NCBI RefSeq assembly: GCF_005298075.1
Contig: NZ_SZZH01000003.1
Span: 62,001-126,000, forward strand
DNA length: 64,000 nt
Direction: 5' to 3'
Origin: Nakamurella flava
GTDB taxonomy: Bacteria > Actinomycetota > Actinomycetes > Mycobacteriales > Nakamurellaceae
Of the stretch, positions 17,386-26,741 are shown one piece after another; position 1 is the stretch's first letter, and each line of letters begins with the position of its first letter. The notes under the pieces are model-generated. The model was not told where the DNA came from, did not search any database, and saw only the letters and a program-made list of their open reading frames with translations. A program made the position numbers and the translations under genes.

Positions 17386-19032
17386 CTACAGGATGGTCTG
17401 CAGTCGCGGCGCAGTCTCGTACTTCTCGACCTCGGACTTCTGCCGGGCCTGGTCCCAGCCGAGGACCGGCGCGACCAGCTCCGCGACCCGGGACGCGGCG
17501 GGCACGCCGGCGTCGGGAGTCTCGATGGCGACGTGGGTCCGTCGGCTGAGCACGTCGTCCAACGTCACCGCGCCCTCGTGGGTGACGGCCCACAGGAACT
17601 CGACCGGCAGGTACCCGGCCGCCCCGTCGACCGGTTTGACCAGCGAGGCGTCCTCACCGGCCGGGGCCAGCACGTCGGGCAGCTCGGCGCCGTAGCGGTA
17701 GAGCATCCGCTGCAGCGTCGCCGCCGGGACCCCGTACTGCTCGGCCAGCACCGGGATCCGGTTGCCGACGGCGTCCCAGCCGGTCGCCCCGACCAGCGGC
17801 AGCGTGGCCGTGGGGCTGTCGGGCAGCGAACCGCCCAGCAGCGGGGCGGCCGCGTCGACCGCGTCCTCGGCCATCGGCCGGTACGTCGTGTACTTGCCGC
17901 CGACGATCGTCACCATGCCCTTGGGTTCGGTGATGGTCGCGTGGTCACGGGACAGGGCCGACGTGGTGGCGGCGTGGTTGCCGGCCGGGGCCAGCAGCGG
18001 ACGCAGACCGGCGTACGTGCCCAGCAGGTCGTCCTCGGTGATCTTGCGGCGCAGGATGCGGTTGATGTTCCGCATCAGGTAGTCGATGTCGTCCCGGGTG
18101 GCGACGGGGTTGTTGATGTCGCCGTCGTACGGGGTGTCGGTGGTGCCGAGCAGCCAGTGCCCGAACCACTTGCGGATGATGATCACCGAGTCCTCGGCCC
18201 GGGCCAGGATGCCGGTCTGCGAATCGAAGGCGTCGCCGCGGACGATCAGGTGCGCGCCCTTGGCCGGGGCGATCGAGAAGGTGTGCGCGCCGGCCATCTT
18301 CTGGATCTCCGACGCCCAGACCCCGGCCGCGTTGACCACGACCTTGGCCGAGACGTCGAAACTCGTCCCCGTCTCCCGGTCCTCGGCCCTGACCCCGGTC
18401 ACCCGGCCGTCGGAGGCGGTGTGCACCGCGGTGACCTTGGCGTACGGGATGACCTGGGCGCCGTACTCGGCGGCGGTGCGGGCGACGGCCAGCGTGTGCC
18501 GGGCGTCGTCCATCCGGCCGTCGGGGTACTGCAGACCGGCGATGACGACGTCCGGGTCCAACGCGGGTGACTCGCGGGCGATCGCCTTGCGGCCCAGGTA
18601 CTTGGCGTGCGGGGCACCGCCGGTCGCCTTGCTCATCGTGGCCATCGCGTCGTACAGCCCGACACCGGCGCCCACGTAGGGCTTTTCCCACTGCTTGGTC
18701 AGCGGGTACAGGAACGGCTCGTGTTTGACCAGGTGCGGGGACAGCGTCTTGATGGTGCGGTCACGTTCGCGCAGCGCGCCGAAGACGAGCTTGAAGTTGA
18801 ACTGCTCCAGGTAGCGCAGACCGCCGTGCATGATCTTGCCGGAGCGCGACGAGGTGCCCACGGCGAGGTCGCCGGCCTCCAGCAGGATGACCGACAGGCC
18901 GCGGGCGGCCGCGTCCAGGGCGACCCCCGCGCCGGTGACACCGCCGCCCACCACGACCATGTCGTGGGTGCCGGAACTAGCGGCGGCCAGTGCCTCGCGG
19001 CGGGCGTCGGGGGACAGGGTGGACAGGCTCAT
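17386..19032 (-). CDS. FAD-dependent polyol-phosphate dehydrogenase (GlpD family; EryB-like)
   Basis: A 548-residue GlpD-family flavoprotein. The FAD-binding VVVGGGVTGAGVALDAA starts near residue 26, followed by GTSSRSGKIMHGGLRYLEQ, the GlpD signature. The C-terminal domain ends with GWDQARQKSEVEKYE. GlpD-type enzymes oxidise glycerol-3-phosphate to DHAP with electrons passed to quinone; EryB, from the same family, oxidises erythritol-4-phosphate to a tetrulose phosphate. Its start overlaps the kinase stop (ATGA), and it is the last gene of the RuBisCO-like operon. The neighbouring TPI- and RpiB-like isomerases favour an EryB-type tetritol-phosphate substrate over plain glycerol phosphate. 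That choice is inference. Confidence 0.8.
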   Translation of the reverse strand: MSLSTLSPDARREALAAASSGTHDMVVVGGGVTGAGVALDAAARGLSVILLEAGDLAVGTSSRSGKIMHGGLRYLEQFNFKLVFGALRERDRTIKTLSPHLVKHEPFLYPLTKQWEKPYVGAGVGLYDAMATMSKATGGAPHAKYLGRKAIARESPALDPDVVIAGLQYPDGRMDDARHTLAVARTAAEYGAQVIPYAKVTAVHTASDGRVTGVRAEDRETGTSFDVSAKVVVNAAGVWASEIQKMAGAHTFSIAPAKGAHLIVRGDAFDSQTGILARAEDSVIIIRKWFGHWLLGTTDTPYDGDINNPVATRDDIDYLMRNINRILRRKITEDDLLGTYAGLRPLLAPAGNHAATTSALSRDHATITEPKGMVTIVGGKYTTYRPMAEDAVDAAAPLLGGSLPDSPTATLPLVGATGWDAVGNRIPVLAEQYGVPAATLQRMLYRYGAELPDVLAPAGEDASLVKPVDGAAGYLPVEFLWAVTHEGAVTLDDVLSRRTHVAIETPDAGVPAASRVAELVAPVLGWDQARQKSEVEKYETAPRLQTIL

Positions 19033-20534
19033 CGATTTTCTCCCAGTGCGGCGAGCGCGGCCCGGGTGTTCCAGAGGGGCCGGGCGGAGTGCAGCAGTTC
19101 CATCTGGTGACGGTACCCACGGTCGTAAAGCACCCGGTTGCGCGGATCGGGTTCGATCACACCTTCCGGGTCGGTCCACTGCTTGACGTCGAGTTCGACA
19201 CCGCGCGCGGCCGCCCCGGCCAGGACGGCCCCGCGGGCGCCGACCTCGGGGTTGCGGGCCAGTTCCAGCGGGACCTCGAGCACGTCGGCGAAGACCTGCA
19301 TCCACGCCGACGATCCGGTGCCGCCGCCGGCGACGACGATGCGTCCGGTGCGGCCGGCCTTGTCGAAGCAGTGCCGGGCGGTGTACGCGAGGCCCTCACA
19401 CACGGCGCGGATGAGATCGCTGCGCTCGGTGGTCAGCCGCAGCCCGGTGATCTGCCCGGCGGCCAGCGGGTCGACGAACGGCGCCCGTTCCCCCGAGGTC
19501 GCCAGGTACGGCAGCATGTTCACGCCGCGCGCGCCGGGGGGCGAGGCGACCAGCGCCTCCTGGACCTCCTTGACCCCGACCCCGAGCATCTTGAGCAGCC
19601 AGTCCAGCGACGCGGTGCCGACCATCGCGGGCATGGCCCGCAGCCAGTGGTCCGGTTGGCCGGTGGACACGCTGAACCCCGCGGGTTCGCCCGCGGTGAC
19701 CAGCGTGTTCTGGTGGACCATGCAGCCCAGCGTCGTGCCGACGATCAGGAGGGCGTCGCCCTCGGTGCCGGGCCAGGCGACCCCGGCGCCGTAGCCGCAG
19801 GCCGGGAAGTCGAACGGGCCCGAGGTGACGGGGGTGCCGGCGGTCAGGCCGAGCAGCTCGGCGCCGGCGTCGTTCAGCTCGCCGATCGGGACGGGCGCGA
19901 CGATCGGGGCCAGCAGGTTCTTGCGGTGCGACAGGCCCGTCTTGTCCAGGGTGTCGTCGCTGTAGCCGAACCCGGTGCCGTCACCGAACGGCATGGAGGC
20001 ATCCGACGGATCGGTGGCCCGGATCCCGGTGAGCCGACCGAAGATCAGGTCCTTGGCGTACCCGGCGGTGGTCGCCCGGTCCAGGGTCTCCGGTTCGTTC
20101 AGGTCCAGCCACTTCAGACAGGCGGCCGGGGCGCCCGGGAACATCGTCCCGCCACTGTTGCGGAACACGTCGTGCAGCACACCGTCGGACTTCCACTGGT
20201 CGACCAGCGAGGCGGCGCGGCCGTCGAGCCACGACAGGGCCGGACGGACCGCGCGGAACTCCTCGTCGGCCAGCCAGCAGCCGTCGCCCTGGCCGGTGAT
20301 CGCCACCGACTCCGGGGTGACACCGGCCTTGGCCACCGCCTTGCGCACGACGTCGCCGAGCGTGGACAAGATCAGTTCGAAGTCCTGTTCCACCGCGCCG
20401 GACACGCCGCCGCCGTCGTGGATCAGCGGGATAGAGGTGCCTTCGACGGCCAGCGCGTCGCCGCTGGCGTCGAAGATCGCGGCCTTGACCACCGAGGTGC
20501 CGGCGTCGATACCCAGGAATGCACGTTCCGCCAT
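19029..20534 (-). CDS. FGGY-family carbohydrate kinase, erythritol-kinase-like
   Basis: A 501-residue sugar/polyol kinase of the FGGY (ASKHA) family. Visible landmarks are the phosphate-1 loop FLGIDAGTSVVKAAIFD, ITGQGDGCWLAD (residues 79-90), the catalytic aspartate in SGPFDFPACGYGAGV (Asp242) and ATP-site glycines in IVVAGGGTGSSAWMQVFAD. The GQGDGxW motif resembles the EryA-type branch rather than glycerol kinase. It would phosphorylate a polyol or ketose taken up as free sugar. It overlaps the dehydrogenase by 4 nt and lies 65 nt after the TPI-like gene. The substrate is inferred from context; erythritol, threitol or another short polyol are the leading options. Confidence 0.8.
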   Translation of the reverse strand: MAERAFLGIDAGTSVVKAAIFDASGDALAVEGTSIPLIHDGGGVSGAVEQDFELILSTLGDVVRKAVAKAGVTPESVAITGQGDGCWLADEEFRAVRPALSWLDGRAASLVDQWKSDGVLHDVFRNSGGTMFPGAPAACLKWLDLNEPETLDRATTAGYAKDLIFGRLTGIRATDPSDASMPFGDGTGFGYSDDTLDKTGLSHRKNLLAPIVAPVPIGELNDAGAELLGLTAGTPVTSGPFDFPACGYGAGVAWPGTEGDALLIVGTTLGCMVHQNTLVTAGEPAGFSVSTGQPDHWLRAMPAMVGTASLDWLLKMLGVGVKEVQEALVASPPGARGVNMLPYLATSGERAPFVDPLAAGQITGLRLTTERSDLIRAVCEGLAYTARHCFDKAGRTGRIVVAGGGTGSSAWMQVFADVLEVPLELARNPEVGARGAVLAGAAARGVELDVKQWTDPEGVIEPDPRNRVLYDRGYRHQMELLHSARPLWNTRAALAALGENR

Positions 20535-20599: not shown

Positions 20600-21409
20600 T
20601 CAACTCGTGACGGTGACACCCGCGTCGTCGGCCGGCGCGTTCCCGGCGCCGGTGATGTCGGCAACCTCGTCAAGGATCCGGCCGACCGCAGCCGGGTCGT
20701 GGGCGAAGCGGCCGAGGAACATCCCGTCGACGTCGTCGGCGATCTGCGGGAGCAGGCCGGGGCCGGCGCTGCCGCCGTAGATGACGCCGGCGTCGAGGAG
20801 GTCGTCCCCGGACAAGTGGCTGCGCAGGGCGGAGCAGACGGCGCGGACGTGGTCGGGGGATGCCGGCTGCGGCGCCCCGATGGCCCAGATGGGTTCGTAG
20901 GCGACGATGAGGCGGCCGGCGGTCCCCGCGTCCCGGGCCGGGGTCAGGGCGGATTCGAGCTGGTCGAGGCAGAACTGAACGGCACTGTCCGGCGACCCGC
21001 GGTCGGGCTCGCCGATGCACAGCACCGGGGCGAGCGAGTTCCGCAGGGCGGCGTGCGTCTTGCGGGCGACGATCTCGTCGGTCTCGCCGAAGTGGGCGCG
21101 GCGTTCGGCATGCCCGACCTCGACGATGCTGCAACCGATCTCGGCCAGTTCGGCGCCACTGACCTCCCCGGTCCACGGGCCCTCGTCGTCCCAGTGCAGG
21201 TCCTGCCCACCGACGGCGATGCCGGCCGGGTCGGCTGCCGCGAACACCGCCGGGATGCTGGGGAACGTCGGGATGACGAAGAACTGGACGGTCCCGTCCC
21301 GGGTCATCGGATGGTCGGCACAGATGTCGGCGACCGCCCGGGTCCACTGCAGCGTGCGGGTGTGGCCGAAGTACATCTTCAGGCTGGAACCGATGGTGAA
21401 GCGGGGCAT
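20600..21409 (-). CDS. Triosephosphate-isomerase-like sugar-phosphate isomerase (EryH/TpiA2-like)
   Basis: A 269-residue TIM barrel starting MPRFTIGSSLKMYFG at ATG 21409; the longer reading frame upstream runs into the previous gene. The catalytic trio of TPI is kept: Lys11, His100 in VEVGHAERR and Glu172 in VAYEPIWAIG. The usual NWKMN is altered to SLKMY and the SERR loop to AERR, unlike a housekeeping TPI. In Brucella the homologue EryH isomerises D-3-tetrulose-4-phosphate to erythrulose-4-phosphate. Its place between a kinase and an RpiB-like isomerase gives the same enzyme set here. The true substrate is unproven. Confidence 0.8.
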   Translation of the reverse strand: MPRFTIGSSLKMYFGHTRTLQWTRAVADICADHPMTRDGTVQFFVIPTFPSIPAVFAAADPAGIAVGGQDLHWDDEGPWTGEVSGAELAEIGCSIVEVGHAERRAHFGETDEIVARKTHAALRNSLAPVLCIGEPDRGSPDSAVQFCLDQLESALTPARDAGTAGRLIVAYEPIWAIGAPQPASPDHVRAVCSALRSHLSGDDLLDAGVIYGGSAGPGLLPQIADDVDGMFLGRFAHDPAAVGRILDEVADITGAGNAPADDAGVTVTS

Positions 21410-21447: not shown

Positions 21448-21933
21448 TCAGGAACTCTCGGGGTGCTGGTCGTACTCGTCGATGGCGGCGACCTTCTCGG
21501 CCGACGCGGAGTTCGGGTCGAAGCGGTAGTCCAGCCATTCGCTAGCCAGCCGGCGGGCGAGTTCCAGACCGACGACCCGCTCGCCCATGCAGAGCACCTG
21601 GGCGTTGTTGGACAGCACGGCCCGCTCGACCGAGAAGCTGTCGTGCGCGGTGACTGCGCGGATGCCGGGCACTTTGTTGGCGCTGATCGCGACGCCCAGT
21701 CCGGTGCCGCAGATCAGCAGCGCCCGGTCGGCCTTGCCCTCGGTGATCAGCCGGGCCGCGGCCACCGCGATGTGCGGGTAGGCGGCGTCCTCGTCCACGT
21801 CGACATCGTCGTCGCGGCCGACATCGATGACCTCCGAGACCCGGTCGTCCTGGCGCAGGTCGTCGGCGAGGGCGTCCTTGTAGGTCAGTCCGGCGTCGTC
21901 GCTACCGACGACGATGCGCAAGGTGTCGGGCAT
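21448..21933 (-). CDS. RpiB/LacAB-family sugar-phosphate isomerase (EryI-like)
   Basis: A 161-residue RpiB-family isomerase. The active-site loop [19 protein letters not shown] carries the catalytic Cys75 and Thr77, and [20 protein letters not shown] gives the phosphate and ring-opening region. The canonical SDHAG near the N-terminus is SDDAG, so one histidine is replaced. In erythritol catabolism the RpiB homologue EryI converts erythrulose-4-phosphate to D-erythrose-4-phosphate, which enters the pentose phosphate pathway. The ATG follows AGGAGG. The 153-nt gap to the upstream RuBisCO-like gene contains a palindrome TGATCA-GCGA-TGATCA (21949-21964) and a GC hairpin (22049-22070), a possible internal promoter or mRNA processing site. 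Confidence 0.82.
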
Positions 21934-22086: not shown

Positions 22087-23367
22087 TCAGACGGAGGAGC
22101 CGAACCGTTCCAGGGCGCGGCCCAGTGCGGGGTGCTCCGCCCCGGCGTCGACCACCGATCGACCGGCCATCACCGCGTCGATCGCCTGGCGCATCGCGTC
22201 GGCTCCCGCGGCCGCGCCGTCCGGGTGACCCTGGATCGCGCCGCCGGCGCCCAGGACGATGTCCGGTCCCAGCTCCTTCATGTAGGTCTCGACGGTGCCG
22301 GGGTGCACGCCGCCACCAACGACCGGGAACACCGGCTTGATGTGCGGGCGGGGCAGCTGCAGCTCCTGCACGGTCTTGAGGTAGGGCAGCCGGCGCAGCG
22401 GGTAGCCGCCGTACGGGGTGATGGTCAGGGCCATGTCGGCCCCGCCGAGGCGCGGCAGCAGCCCCAGGGCCAGCGGCGCGGACATGCCGGTACCGGCGCC
22501 CTCGAAATAGGGGGTGGCTCCGGCGTAGTGGGCCAGGATCGGGACGTCGATCGTCTCGGCGAGGGCCTGCAGGGTGCCGTAGCCGGCCGAGGCGTAGGCG
22601 ATCATCACGGCCCGGGCGCCGGCGTCGACGGCGCGGCGGGCGGTGTCCAGGAGCTTGTCGGGGCGGTCGGTGACGTTGGGGATGTAGACGACGTCCCGTC
22701 CGGTCTCCTGCTTGGCCCGCTCGGCCGCGGCCAGGTACGCCTTGACCCGGTCCACGACCGGGGAGAAGGTCGGGTTGCCGAGCAGCTCGTCGTCCTTGAT
22801 GAGATCGACGCCGCCGAGAGCGGTCTCGTAGAAGATCTTGGCGCCCTGCTCCGGAGTCAGGCCGGTGCACGGCTTGATCATGTTCAGCACGAGCGGGCGG
22901 TCCTGCACGCCGACCAGGTCGCGGACGCCCTGGATGCCGAACCGCGGGCCGACGAAGCCCTGGGCCAGCGAGTCCGGGAGTTCCAGATCGACCAGCTTGG
23001 CCTGCACCGACGTCGACACGTCGTTGCCGATGGACGTGGCCAGCATCATCGGGATGGAGGGCCCGAAGTTGACGGTCGGCAGCGCGATCTGGATGAAGTA
23101 GCCGGTGGTCTCGGCCGTCTGGGTGGCCAGGTCGACCGGCGGGGCCTCCAGCACCTTGACGACGCGGCCGCGGTGCCGCTGCCGCATCTCGTCGGTGACG
23201 CCCGGCACCTCGATCCAGGTGCCGATGGTCTGCCCGACCGCATACCCCGTCGCCTTGGCCAGCACGTCGGCGTCCGCCGGCATCTGGAGGTAGAAGGTCG
23301 CGAGGAGGTAGTCCTCCCCGCGGATGGTTTCGCTGAGGCTGAACATCGCGGACATGTCGGCGGGCAC
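22087..23367 (-). CDS. RuBisCO-like protein (form IV), first gene of a tetritol-type catabolic operon
   Basis: A 426-residue RuBisCO large-subunit homologue. Conserved positions: Asn115 (SIGNDV), Lys165 (MIKPCTGLT, equivalent to Lys175), the metal-site KDDE at 191-194 (carbamylated lysine plus Asp/Glu), His280 (His294) and the phosphate-binding GAGGAIQGHP (374-382). Lost: the second lysine of KPK, the His325/His327 pair (now Met-Ala-Leu), loop-6 Lys334 (the segment reads TITPYGGYPL) and Ser379. So it keeps metal and enolisation chemistry but should not fix CO2. The GTG start follows AGGAG; ATG at residue 5 is an alternative. Known relatives act as enolases, isomerases, transcarboxylases or decarboxylases on sugar phosphates. 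Here it may replace EryC racemase; reaction unproven. Confidence 0.88.
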   Translation of the reverse strand: MPADMSAMFSLSETIRGEDYLLATFYLQMPADADVLAKATGYAVGQTIGTWIEVPGVTDEMRQRHRGRVVKVLEAPPVDLATQTAETTGYFIQIALPTVNFGPSIPMMLATSIGNDVSTSVQAKLVDLELPDSLAQGFVGPRFGIQGVRDLVGVQDRPLVLNMIKPCTGLTPEQGAKIFYETALGGVDLIKDDELLGNPTFSPVVDRVKAYLAAAERAKQETGRDVVYIPNVTDRPDKLLDTARRAVDAGARAVMIAYASAGYGTLQALAETIDVPILAHYAGATPYFEGAGTGMSAPLALGLLPRLGGADMALTITPYGGYPLRRLPYLKTVQELQLPRPHIKPVFPVVGGGVHPGTVETYMKELGPDIVLGAGGAIQGHPDGAAAGADAMRQAIDAVMAGRSVVDAGAEHPALGRALERFGSSV

Positions 23368-23633: not shown

Positions 23634-24299
23634 ATGACGACAGCACGCATGGCCGAGGTGCGATCCATCATCCGCAGCGATGCGCCGGTCGACGGACTGG
23701 CCGCCCGGCTGCTGTCCGACACCGCCGGGCTGCGGCTGACCTTCTCCCGCGTGGTGGACCTGCCATCCGCCGTGCGCAGCCGGTCCGACTACCTCGACCT
23801 GCTCGGCGCTTTCCACCACGCCCACCACCACCTCGAGCCGATGCTGTCGCCACGCGAGTGGACCGGGCAGTGGGCCCGGCTGGGGGTCGATCCGGTCCTG
23901 CACCGGCGCGCCCCGCTGCTCGACGCCGATCTGACCGATCTGGGGGTGCGCATGGTGCTGGGCGATGCGCCGCTGCCGCGCATCACGACCTTCGCCGACG
24001 CGCTGGGTGCGCTGTTCGTCCTCGACGGCCCGACCCTGGACGGCCCGGCCCTGGCCCGCTCCTTCCGCACCAGCTGGCCCGGCCTGCCGGTGCGCTACCT
24101 GTCCGGCACCGACCGGCCCATCCGTCGTACGTGGGGGATCGTCCGCGCGGCGCTGGACCGGTTCGGTGAACAGGGTGGGCTCGGCGACGATGTCCTGAAC
24201 GGGGCCGTCCGGACGTACGACTACCTCGCGCTGGTGCTGCGCAGCCGCGGACGGGACGGCGCGATACCGCTGCAGCCGGCGGTGGCCGAGGTCGGCTGA
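23634..24299 (+). CDS. Heme-oxygenase-superfamily protein lacking the usual proximal histidine
   Basis: A 221-residue protein starting MTTARMAEVRSIIRS after a run of six G. The middle segment ALGALFVLDGPTLDGPALAR matches the YVLEGSTLGG core of bacterial heme oxygenases such as BphO. The N-terminal helix LLSDTAGLRLTFSRV aligns with the LRxATxxxHxxLE helix, but the heme-ligand histidine is not there. A histidine-rich FHHAHHHLEP follows. Either another residue binds heme or the protein has lost activity. No phytochrome or iron-uptake gene is adjacent. It is divergent from the RuBisCO-like operon and convergent with the GH31 gene. Fold assignment is fairly good; function is open. Confidence 0.6.
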   Translation: MTTARMAEVRSIIRSDAPVDGLAARLLSDTAGLRLTFSRVVDLPSAVRSRSDYLDLLGAFHHAHHHLEPMLSPREWTGQWARLGVDPVLHRRAPLLDADLTDLGVRMVLGDAPLPRITTFADALGALFVLDGPTLDGPALARSFRTSWPGLPVRYLSGTDRPIRRTWGIVRAALDRFGEQGGLGDDVLNGAVRTYDYLALVLRSRGRDGAIPLQPAVAEVG

Positions 24300-24311
24300 C
24301 CGGGGTCAGCC
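24294..24311. terminator. Palindrome carrying both stop codons of a convergent pair
   Basis: GGCTGACC and GGTCAGCC form an 8-bp stem around GG. The plus-strand stop TGA is 24297-24299 and the minus-strand stop TGA is 24306-24308, so the same short stem ends both convergent genes. Confidence 0.55.
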
Positions 24312-26741
24312 GGCCAGGAGCACCTCGCTGAGCGCCGACTCCAGCTCCCGGTCGACGGCCAGGGCCTGCAGTCCGCTGATCCGCGCCGCCAGCGGGGTCG
24401 AAGCCGTCAACAGTGCGTGCAGATCCCGCTTGAGCTCGTACTCGATCTCCGCGCGCTCGAGGAGCGCGAAGAGTCGGGCGGCGACGTCCGTCGGGGCGGG
24501 TCGCGGGTCCGCACCGAGGTCGACGGTCACGGTCGCGGTCGCCGGCACCTCGTCGATGACCAGCGCCGGCAGTGCGCGGCCGAGTCCGGGCGCGGTCGCG
24601 GCGGCTGTGGCGACCGGGGCGCCGTCCACCCGGACCGTGGCGTGGCCGAGCCCGTCGAGACCGACCGCGCTGACCGACCAACGACGCCGTGTCGGGATCG
24701 CGGCGGCCGGTCCGATCGTCAGTCGACCGGTGGCCTGCTCCCACCGGATCGGGGTGAGAACCGGCTCGGCGTCGGCGGTGTCGTCGTCCTCGATGAGATC
24801 GAAAGCCCCGTCGGCGCCGGGGACGAGCACGAGGTGCAGGTGCTCCGGATTGGCCGGGGTGTTGGCCGGCTCGGCGGCGCCGTCCAGCGGCAGGATCGCC
24901 CCGGCCGGGGCGAGCACCGGGTACTCGTCCAGTCCGCGATGCAGGACGATCCGCCGGCCGTCCGGCCCGGGCGAGTGGTACCGCAGCCCGGTGGTCAGGT
25001 CGGTCCAGTCCCCGGGGGGCAACCAGGCCGGGGTCGCGGCCAGGCCCAGCTCCCGGTGGCGGGTGGTGGTGACCGGGGCGACCAACAGGGCGGTGCCGAA
25101 CGAAAACTGTTGCGGCACCGCATAGGCCGCCCGGTTCTCCGGGTGGTCCCAGTAGACCGGTCGGACCAGGGGCCGGCCCTCTGCCGCCAGGTGGTTCATC
25201 GTGTGCAGGTATGGCAGCAGTCGGTGGCGCAGGCGCAGCGCGTCGGTCATCACGGCGGCGGTCTGCGGACCGAACGCCCACGGTTCCTTGGTGGCGAACG
25301 GGTTCGCCCCGGAGTGCAGGCGCAGGATCGGCGAGAAGGCCCCCAGCTGCACCCATCTCGCGGTCAGCTCGTCGTCCTTGACGCCCATCATGTGCCCGCC
25401 GATGTCGTGGCTCCACCAGCCGTACCCGATGTTGGACGCGGTGGCAGTGAACTCCGGCTGGAAGGCCAGCGACGCCCAGCTGACCAGGGTGTCGCCCGAG
25501 AACCCCACCGGGTACCGGTGACTCCCCGGTCCGGCGTACCGGGAGAACGTCAGCGGGCGGCGTTCGGCGGGTTCACCGTCCCGCCGCCGCCGGCTGTCCA
25601 GGAAGTGGAAGTGGTTGAGCATCCACAGCGGGTCGATGCCGGCGACCCGCGAGTACGGGCCGGACTGCCAGTCCAGCCACCAGAAGTCGACGCCCTCGTC
25701 CTCGCGGGTGCGGTGGGCGACATCGAAATAGGCCCGTAGGAACGCCGGATCGGTGACGTCGAAGGCCAGCGCCCGCCCGGACTCCGGGTCGAGACCGAGC
25801 GCCCGGGCCATCCGTGCGTACACGTCCTCGTGGGCCCGGATGCCGTCGGCCGGGTGGACGTTGAGGGTCACCCGCAGGCCGCGCCGGTGCAGTTCGGCCA
25901 GGAACGCCTCGGGGTCGGGAAACAGGTCACGGTTCCACGTGTAGCCGGTCCAGCCGCTGCCGAGGATGGGGTCGATGTCGACCTGGTGCCAGTCCATGTC
26001 GATGACGGCGACGGAGAACGGCACGTCGGCCGCCGCGAACCGGTCCAGCAGCGCGCGGTACTCGTCGGCGCTGTACCGGTGGTAGCGGCTCCACCAGTTG
26101 CCGAGGGCGTACCGGGGCAGGACCGGCGGGTACCCGGAGACCTCGTAGAAGGCGGTGATGGCGCCGGGATAGTCGCGGCCGTAACCGAAGACGTAGAGGT
26201 CCAGGCGGCCGTCCTGGTCCGGGCGGCGGGGCCGCACCCAGCCGTCCTCGGTGAACAGCAGGGAGGCCGAATCGTCCAGGACGGCGAACCCGTCCCGGGA
26301 CAGCACGCCCTCCTCCAGCGGGATCCGGCCGTCGGCGTTGTCCAGCGTCCGGGCCGTCCCGCCGAGGTTCGTCCCGGACTGCCCGTACCGCCAGACGCTG
26401 TGGTAGGAGCTGACATTGCCCCTGACCTGCACGGACAGTCCGCTGGTGCTGAACGGCCCGAGGTCGTAGATCAGGTGCAGCCGGTCGGTGACGACCTCCA
26501 GGTGGGTGTCGCCCTCGATGACCCGGAAGTCCGGGACGGGCAGCCGACGACGGAGCGCGAAGGTCGAGGCCAGATCGGTGAACTCGTCGTCCGGCGAGTA
26601 CTCCAGCCGTAGCAGCCCGTCCGTCAGCACGGTGATCCGGTAGTGCGGCCCCTGCACCACCGCGGCCGGGTCGGCCACCGGATCGGTGGGGAGGTGGTGT
26701 CGGGTGACGCCGGTCGCTGATGTGCTGCTGGAGCCGATCAC
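24306..26741 (-). CDS. Glycoside hydrolase family 31 (alpha-glucosidase/alpha-xylosidase type)
   Basis: An 811-residue cytoplasmic GH31 enzyme. Domain order is N-terminal beta-sandwich (1-210), a TIM barrel with NWWSRYHRYSADEY, AVIDMDWHQVDID and the nucleophile motif FWWLDWQSGPYS (Asp357 or so), the acid region VGFSGDTLVSW, SHDIGGHMMG and LGAFSPILRLHS, then C-terminal beta domains. A 60-residue helical tail (from about 750) is extra. GH31 enzymes release alpha-linked glucose, xylose or sulfoquinovose from the non-reducing end; the motif WLDWQSG differs from the classical WIDMNE, so the exact substrate is uncertain. No signal peptide, so the sugar must be imported first. It is a single gene with no adjacent sugar transporter. 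Confidence 0.85.
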   Translation of the reverse strand: MIGSSSTSATGVTRHHLPTDPVADPAAVVQGPHYRITVLTDGLLRLEYSPDDEFTDLASTFALRRRLPVPDFRVIEGDTHLEVVTDRLHLIYDLGPFSTSGLSVQVRGNVSSYHSVWRYGQSGTNLGGTARTLDNADGRIPLEEGVLSRDGFAVLDDSASLLFTEDGWVRPRRPDQDGRLDLYVFGYGRDYPGAITAFYEVSGYPPVLPRYALGNWWSRYHRYSADEYRALLDRFAAADVPFSVAVIDMDWHQVDIDPILGSGWTGYTWNRDLFPDPEAFLAELHRRGLRVTLNVHPADGIRAHEDVYARMARALGLDPESGRALAFDVTDPAFLRAYFDVAHRTREDEGVDFWWLDWQSGPYSRVAGIDPLWMLNHFHFLDSRRRRDGEPAERRPLTFSRYAGPGSHRYPVGFSGDTLVSWASLAFQPEFTATASNIGYGWWSHDIGGHMMGVKDDELTARWVQLGAFSPILRLHSGANPFATKEPWAFGPQTAAVMTDALRLRHRLLPYLHTMNHLAAEGRPLVRPVYWDHPENRAAYAVPQQFSFGTALLVAPVTTTRHRELGLAATPAWLPPGDWTDLTTGLRYHSPGPDGRRIVLHRGLDEYPVLAPAGAILPLDGAAEPANTPANPEHLHLVLVPGADGAFDLIEDDDTADAEPVLTPIRWEQATGRLTIGPAAAIPTRRRWSVSAVGLDGLGHATVRVDGAPVATAAATAPGLGRALPALVIDEVPATATVTVDLGADPRPAPTDVAARLFALLERAEIEYELKRDLHALLTASTPLAARISGLQALAVDRELESALSEVLLAG

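Follow-up and report, generated by a model that had tools for sequence, protein, structure and literature searches.

What a RuBisCO-like protein (RLP) does at the head of a carbohydrate operon is the question raised by a locus of Nakamurella flava, analyzed here within a 64,000-nucleotide stretch of contig NZ_SZZH01000003.1 (positions 62,001 to 126,000; the window). Few RLP functions are known, namely those of enolase, isomerase, decarboxylase, transcarboxylase, and oxygenase. An earlier note on this DNA had described an RLP active site in which the metal site was kept and the CO2-fixing residues were lost, and had suggested that the protein could mark a separate functional subgroup.

The RLP open reading frame was found to be complete, with a GTG start at 23367, an AGGAG ribosome-binding site, and a GC3 of 0.95. 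Both PF00016 and PF02788 matched the protein in a Pfam search. An AlphaFold2 model built from 38 natural relatives (pLDDT 92, pTM 0.91) displayed the predicted RuBisCO/MtnW fold, with full-length matches to solved structures of RLPs and RuBisCOs (Z 41-50) and MtnW 2oem as the top match (Z 49.9, 38% identity). The protein thus has the characteristics of a form IV RLP, including: (i) the RuBisCO large-subunit fold with its Pfam domains; and (ii) a carbamate-lysine metal site that is kept while carboxylation residues are replaced. The RLP gene is the first of a set of five (Table 1).

Table 1. Genes of the RLP operon, with positions as numbered in the window
Feature	Position	Strand	Basis
RuBisCO-like protein (RLP), 426 aa, GGYP clade, first gene of the operon	22087..23367	-	Pfam, tree, alignment, AlphaFold2 model
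RpiB-family isomerase	21448..21933	-	PF02502; above TIGR02133 cut-off
TIM-family isomerase	20600..21409	-	PF00121; catalytic K, H, and E kept
FGGY-family carbohydrate (polyol) kinase, EryA position	19029..20534	-	PF00370/PF02782
GlpD-like FAD dehydrogenase (polyol-phosphate oxidation), EryB position	17386..19032	-	PF01266/PF16901

A plus-strand open reading frame of 221 aa without a Pfam match (23634-24299) is divergent from the operon, and the operon promoter probably lies between it and the RLP gene. No sigma-70-type promoter was found in the region, which means little at 72% GC. A GH31 glycosidase gene (alpha-xylosidase-like; 24306-26741) precedes the operon in the same orientation, with no link to the RLP pathway seen.

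Clade placement and active-site residues

Placement in a RuBisCO superfamily tree, as the earlier note had proposed, was performed by maximum likelihood with IQ-TREE and included MtnW, OiaX, acid-kinase-linked RLPs, a DeepYkr-like group, and form I. OiaT was represented only by the acid-kinase-linked RLPs, which are unnamed proteins encoded beside four-carbon-acid kinases; verified OiaT, hamamelose RLP, and R. rubrum RLP sequences lay outside the sampling. A scan of 84,980 named genomes yielded 80 loci with 45-67% identity to the window RLP, and a congener was found to carry an 86% identical copy. In the tree, the window RLP fell outside the MtnW, OiaX, and DeepYkr-like clades and within a clade of 42 rows, termed GGYP (support 100/99), with members from Actinobacteria, Clostridia, Erysipelotrichia, and Chloroflexi. 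The sister of GGYP, termed GKFP (85/81), was composed of sequences from Syntrophomonadaceae, Bathyarchaeota, Caldisericota, and others; the two were joined at 88/85, with MtnW next (97/88). The DeepYkr-like group, which included L124 and PDB 3qfw (presumably the R. palustris DeepYkr RLP), was separate from GGYP (100/100), and the acid-kinase-linked RLPs formed yet another clade. The proposal of a separate functional subgroup is supported by this distinct clade and by scores below the NCBIfam cut-offs for MtnW (283.6 bits versus 513.6 for TIGR03332; 318.7 versus 409 for NF007095) and OiaX (190.4 bits versus 700). The outcome named by the earlier note as refuting this proposal, a clear position inside MtnW, OiaX, or OiaT along with their specificity residues, did not arise for MtnW, for OiaX, or for the acid-kinase-linked RLPs standing in for OiaT. 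Membership in OiaX or the DeepYkr-like group was rejected, based on the tree for both and also on the score for OiaX.

That the protein serves as MtnW, the methionine-salvage enolase, would be in keeping with the closest solved structures and sequences and with the sister position of MtnW in the tree, yet is highly improbable. Not only were the scores under the curated cut-offs, but position 115 was found to be N in 56 of 56 GGYP members and K in all MtnW rows, the lysine that serves as the MtnW base. Furthermore, the mtn genes are absent from the operon, and acireductone dioxygenase and MtnX were not found in the genome by a search in which the positive controls matched. Methionine salvage was rejected on the grounds of the cut-off, N115, and the missing MtnX and acireductone dioxygenase.

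Other members of the superfamily were encountered in related genomes. Another congener (L003) lacks the RLP and instead encodes a large subunit of the form I RuBisCO type in which every catalytic residue is present, and actinobacteria of small genome size (about 1.4-2 Mb; L015-L023) encode DeepYkr-like RLPs with KDDH instead of KDDE.

RLPs and RuBisCOs were aligned with MAFFT, and their residues were compared using spinach numbering for RuBisCO. All residues listed by the earlier note as kept were confirmed, including K165 (spinach K175), K191/D193/E194 of the KDDE motif at 191-194 (K201/D203/E204), N115 (N123), H280 (H294), and the glycine-rich phosphate loop; both glycine loops were kept, at G352/G353 and G375/G376 (G380/G381 and G403/G404). 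Its list of replacements was equally borne out: the second lysine of KPK (K177 to C167), both histidines preceding loop 6 (H325 to M312 and H327 to L314), the loop-6 lysine (K334 to G321), and S379 (to G351). Two further losses were apparent, R295 (to Y281) and E60 (to G45). The kept residues as well as C167, G45, and G351 were invariant in 56 of 56 GGYP members, with G321 present in 52; judged by this conservation over 56 clade members, the residue pattern is not due to chance. Loop 6 of the window RLP, TITPYGGYP, was found to differ from that of MtnW (FPSPYGSVA) and the DeepYkr-like group (PNxGGRF), in line with the claim that it is unlike MtnW and the R. rubrum isomerase type, though a PYG core is common with MtnW.

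Fixation of CO2 by the window RLP is ruled out by the loss of K177, R295, H327, K334, S379, and E60. The retained set, comprised of the carbamate-lysine/Mg site, K175, N123, H294, and the P1 phosphate glycines, corresponds to the residues needed for enolizing a 2-keto 1-phosphate, while the second phosphate site (R295, H327, and S379) and the loop-6 machinery are lost. From its residues, the predicted pocket would fit a small monophosphate without a carboxylate, such as a four-carbon ketose 1-phosphate.

The ion pair formed by E60 and K334 helps to handle the carboxylate in RuBisCO. Of the two active-site residues, Glu60 is contributed by the N-domain and Lys334 by the neighboring subunit through its barrel domain (PMC5786004). 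When these two positions were examined by group, GGYP was found to have G at E60 (56/56) and at K334 (52/56), whereas GKFP kept both residues (26/26). Elsewhere in the alignment, both were lost in MtnW, K was found with D in OiaX, and E was found with R in the DeepYkr-like group; the acid-kinase-linked RLPs, as well as OiaX, keep the loop-6 lysine with E or D as partner. The GKFP loci that keep E60 and the loop-6 lysine (L087-L114, from syntrophic Bacillota, Bathyarchaeota, Thermoflexia, and others) often display a conserved gene set of RLP, PF09370 (PEP-hydrolase-like), ComB-type phosphatase, UPF0261, and PF09370.

The operon and the proposed epimerase reaction

Downstream of the RLP gene, the same-strand order is RpiB-family isomerase, TIM-family isomerase, FGGY kinase, and GlpD-like dehydrogenase, with the ATG start of the last at 19032 overlapping the kinase stop. 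This arrangement equals the Brucella/Rhizobium erythritol set (EryA, EryB, EryH, and EryI), except that the RLP takes the place of EryC; in a canonical rhizobial ery operon (L133), the genes encode FGGY, GlpD, EryC, regulators, TIM, and RpiB. The combination characteristic of the ery pathway, an FGGY kinase, a GlpD-like dehydrogenase, an EryH-type TIM, and an EryI-type RpiB, is present in one operon, though identity to EryA and EryB is no higher than 30% for the kinase and the dehydrogenase. The kinase was found to be XylB-like (below cut-off) and not GlpK; it shares 30% identity with rhizobial EryA and 46% with an FGGY kinase of Shinella that is encoded close to a GlpD. The dehydrogenase, one of three GlpD paralogues in the genome, scored 299 bits to GlpD (cut-off 360). 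The RpiB scored 161.6 bits to the D-erythrulose-4-P isomerase model NF051858 (cut-off 240) and shared 65% identity with the Arthrobacter RpiB encoded next to LerI/DhaK and 43% with rhizobial EryI. The TIM was 52% identical to the LerI-type TIM of Arthrobacter and nested inside the TIMs of DhaK operons (support 95); because of this nesting, its substrate would most likely be L-erythrulose-1-phosphate.

EryC is described as a tetrulose-4-P racemase, also named D-erythrulose 1-phosphate 3-epimerase (PMC11508834, PMC10733421). It has to precede LerI in routes that form D-erythrulose-1-P (PMC11508834, PMC10733421) and is essential in an engineered E. coli pathway with D-erythrulose-1-phosphate as the entry compound (PMC10733421). 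At the sensitivity applied, a search with one rhizobial EryC sequence found no EryC in the window operon or the N. flava genome and, across 26 genomes with an RLP, nothing stronger than two 25% hits; counter to the proposal below, the same query matched only once among 297 actinobacteria. The EryC family, part of the xylose-isomerase superfamily, is unrelated to RLP.

We propose that the RLP stands in for EryC, and consider it moderately probable, on the present sequence comparisons, that the protein is a D-/L-erythrulose-1-phosphate 3-epimerase that uses RuBisCO enolization without the CO2 chemistry. This reading is based on (i) an operon that equals the ery set with RLP for EryC, the EryC search result, and the nesting of the TIM within the LerI type; (ii) the retention of the enolization residues and one phosphate site alongside the loss of the second site and E60/K334; and (iii) the mutual exclusion of RLP and DhaK at TIM-bearing loci and the frequent proximity of TIM and RpiB to GGYP RLPs, both described below. 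In the proposed pathway, the FGGY kinase would phosphorylate a tetritol, with erythritol as the probable physiological polyol, and the GlpD-like enzyme would oxidize the carbon next to the phosphate to generate D-erythrulose-1-phosphate. The RLP would then take H3 off this compound via the carbamylated K191-Mg2+ center to form a 2,3-enediol that would be the same as in RuBP enolization, and a proton would be returned from the other face, with K165 or H280 as candidate donors, to yield L-erythrulose-1-phosphate. Epimerization at C3 via a 2,3-enediol would thus represent the first step of RuBisCO followed by opposite-face reprotonation.

If the RLP supplies the TIM, loci that make L-erythrulose-1-phosphate directly should not need an RLP. 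Among 18 other actinobacterial loci with a LerI-type TIM, 16 had a DhaK-family (LerK type) kinase and the remaining two were cut by contig ends; many carried OiaC and ApnO homologues, and RLP, FGGY, and GlpD were found in none of the 18. Conversely, DhaK was detected in none of 35 TIM-bearing RLP loci. The RLP is therefore found at loci in which LerK does not itself make L-erythrulose-1-P, a contrast that fits an epimerase downstream of GlpD and equally a decarboxylase that bypasses LerK and delivers L-erythrulose-1-P.

In the latter case, an OiaX-like RLP would convert a 3-oxo acid phosphate (e.g., 3-oxo-isoapionate-4-phosphate) to L-erythrulose-1-phosphate for the TIM and RpiB. There is precedent in OiaX, an RLP described to decarboxylate 3-oxo-isoapionate-4-phosphate, and the product reportedly feeds LerI/DerI. 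OiaC plus DhaK also fill the place of the RLP in related operons, and some GGYP loci have lactonases and ABC importers, as a sugar acid would predict. Nonetheless, we regard a decarboxylase as unlikely, this reading being weakened in two ways. The loop-6 lysine and E60, lost in GGYP, have counterparts (K with E or D) in OiaX and the acid-kinase-linked RLPs, and the window operon is devoid of acid kinase, ApnO, and OiaC homologues. The OiaX score and clade likewise argue against it, and contexts of the PTS- or FGGY- plus GlpD/GlpO-type point to neutral polyols; the lactonase-containing GGYP loci leave a decarboxylase some probability.

Gene contexts of the GGYP clade and significance

The neighborhoods of GGYP and GKFP were counted over a fixed locus list that followed the tree and loop-6 motif. 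A TIM was near the RLP in 35 of 55 GGYP loci versus 0 of 26 GKFP loci (P about 5e-9, descriptive only, as related loci are not independent), and an RpiB in 32 of 55 versus 0 of 26. In the Clostridia loci (L042-L044 and L046), a GlpO-type oxidase gene comes after RpiB-TIM-RLP, and these genes are accompanied by those for a DeoR regulator, class II aldolase, galactitol-type PTS, and in some cases transketolase. The Erysipelotrichia loci encode PTS, RpiB, TIM, RLP, and class II aldolase. Counter to the epimerase proposal, TIM/RpiB were not nearby in about a third of the GGYP loci, and many loci had no obvious polyol kinase or dehydrogenase, including: (i) those with ABC importer, lactonase, UPF0261, class II aldolase, and RLP, with TIM/RpiB present or absent; and (ii) those with amidohydrolase, PF09370, and UPF0261 together with RpiB/TIM. 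The cluster of ABC importer, MBL-fold lactonase, UPF0261, class II aldolase, and GntR was observed with a GGYP RLP at L058, L059, L064, L066-L072, L076, L077, and L084; its UPF0261 is Tm-1-like, and no paper linking RLP with UPF0261 was found in a literature search.

In actinobacterial relatives, FGGY, GlpD, TIM, and a class II FBA-type aldolase adjoin the RLP, which would suit a pentulose 1-phosphate isomerase or epimerase (for instance, a 1,3-isomerase like that of R. rubrum, or an enzyme that epimerizes C3 to provide a class II aldolase with its substrate), with the TIM handling DHAP. A cluster parallel to these, found in the N. flava genome, includes an E1/E2 dehydrogenase as well, and the DeepYkr RLP isomerizes a ketose 1-phosphate (PMC5893883). 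However, the aldolase is absent from the window operon, the TIM nested in LerI and the RpiB closest to a DerI-type enzyme both point to C4, and the window RLP is outside the DeepYkr-like clade, such that a pentulose substrate appears rather improbable. The parallel cluster (C1:289000-308900; L177) encodes a second FGGY kinase, GlpD, TIM, class II FBA-type aldolase, and HAD protein with the E1/E2 dehydrogenase complex and is without an RLP; its kinase is 78% identical to the one beside the RLP in Herbiconiux (L037). This suggests that related gene sets may use pentitols, with the TIM acting on DHAP. The at least three recruitments of RLP-associated TIMs were not taken as proof of one substrate, because that of the L035/L037 type, encoded next to an aldolase, could be a triose-phosphate isomerase of the usual kind.

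Class II aldolases (FucA-like or FBA-like) were observed to co-occur with RLP and LerI/DerI-type isomerases at L035-L067. The synthetic erythrulose-monophosphate formaldehyde cycle has those parts, and its authors suspected a natural existence (PMC10733421). More tentatively than for the window protein, it is possible that this widespread, apparently uncharacterized RuBisCO-fold clade as a whole is a ketose-1-phosphate epimerase that replaces EryC in Gram-positive polyol catabolism, and that the loci with class II aldolases, LerI, and DerI hold the parts of a formaldehyde cycle so far built only synthetically. In such a clade, the enolization and misprotonation side reaction of RuBisCO would have become the main reaction.

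If the window RLP is an epimerase, (i) it would represent a RuBisCO active site cut down to the first half-reaction and a natural case of C3 misprotonation, a known RuBisCO side reaction; (ii) it would account for the step that kinase-first tetritol pathways lack outside the alphaproteobacteria; and (iii) it would provide an alternative to EryC, as explicitly asked for by the authors of the synthetic cycle (PMC10733421).

Comparison with known systems

Among known systems, the step proposed for the RLP is that of EryC, the Brucella/Rhizobium D-erythrulose-1-phosphate 3-epimerase, in the same five-gene pathway. The closest in fold and sequence is MtnW, the YkrW clade RLP and DK-MTP-1-phosphate enolase (PDB 2oek/2oem, 2zvi, and 3fk4; 38%), which similarly keeps one phosphate site and the metal site and has lost E60, K334, R295, and H327; unlike MtnW, the window RLP has N115 for lysine, C167, and G351 for S, belongs to a separate clade, and is not accompanied by methionine-salvage genes. 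OiaX, the 3-oxo-isoapionate-4-phosphate decarboxylase, is an RLP whose reported product is L-erythrulose-1-P, the substrate of the type of TIM found beside the window RLP; in contrast, OiaX keeps K334 and R295 (G321 and Y281 in the window RLP), has about 30% identity, and differs in clade and neighbors. The R. rubrum/R. palustris DeepYkr RLP (5-methylthioribulose-1-P 1,3-isomerase) would also move protons of a ketose 1-phosphate without CO2, yet the DeepYkr-like rows are of another clade, with R as the loop-6 residue and H replacing E204. Finally, the LerK/LerI/DerI tetritol pathway of Mycolicibacterium smegmatis has LerI- and DerI-type isomerases in common with the window operon; that route proceeds by a dehydrogenase first and then an erythrulose kinase, whereas the window operon has FGGY, GlpD, and RLP instead.
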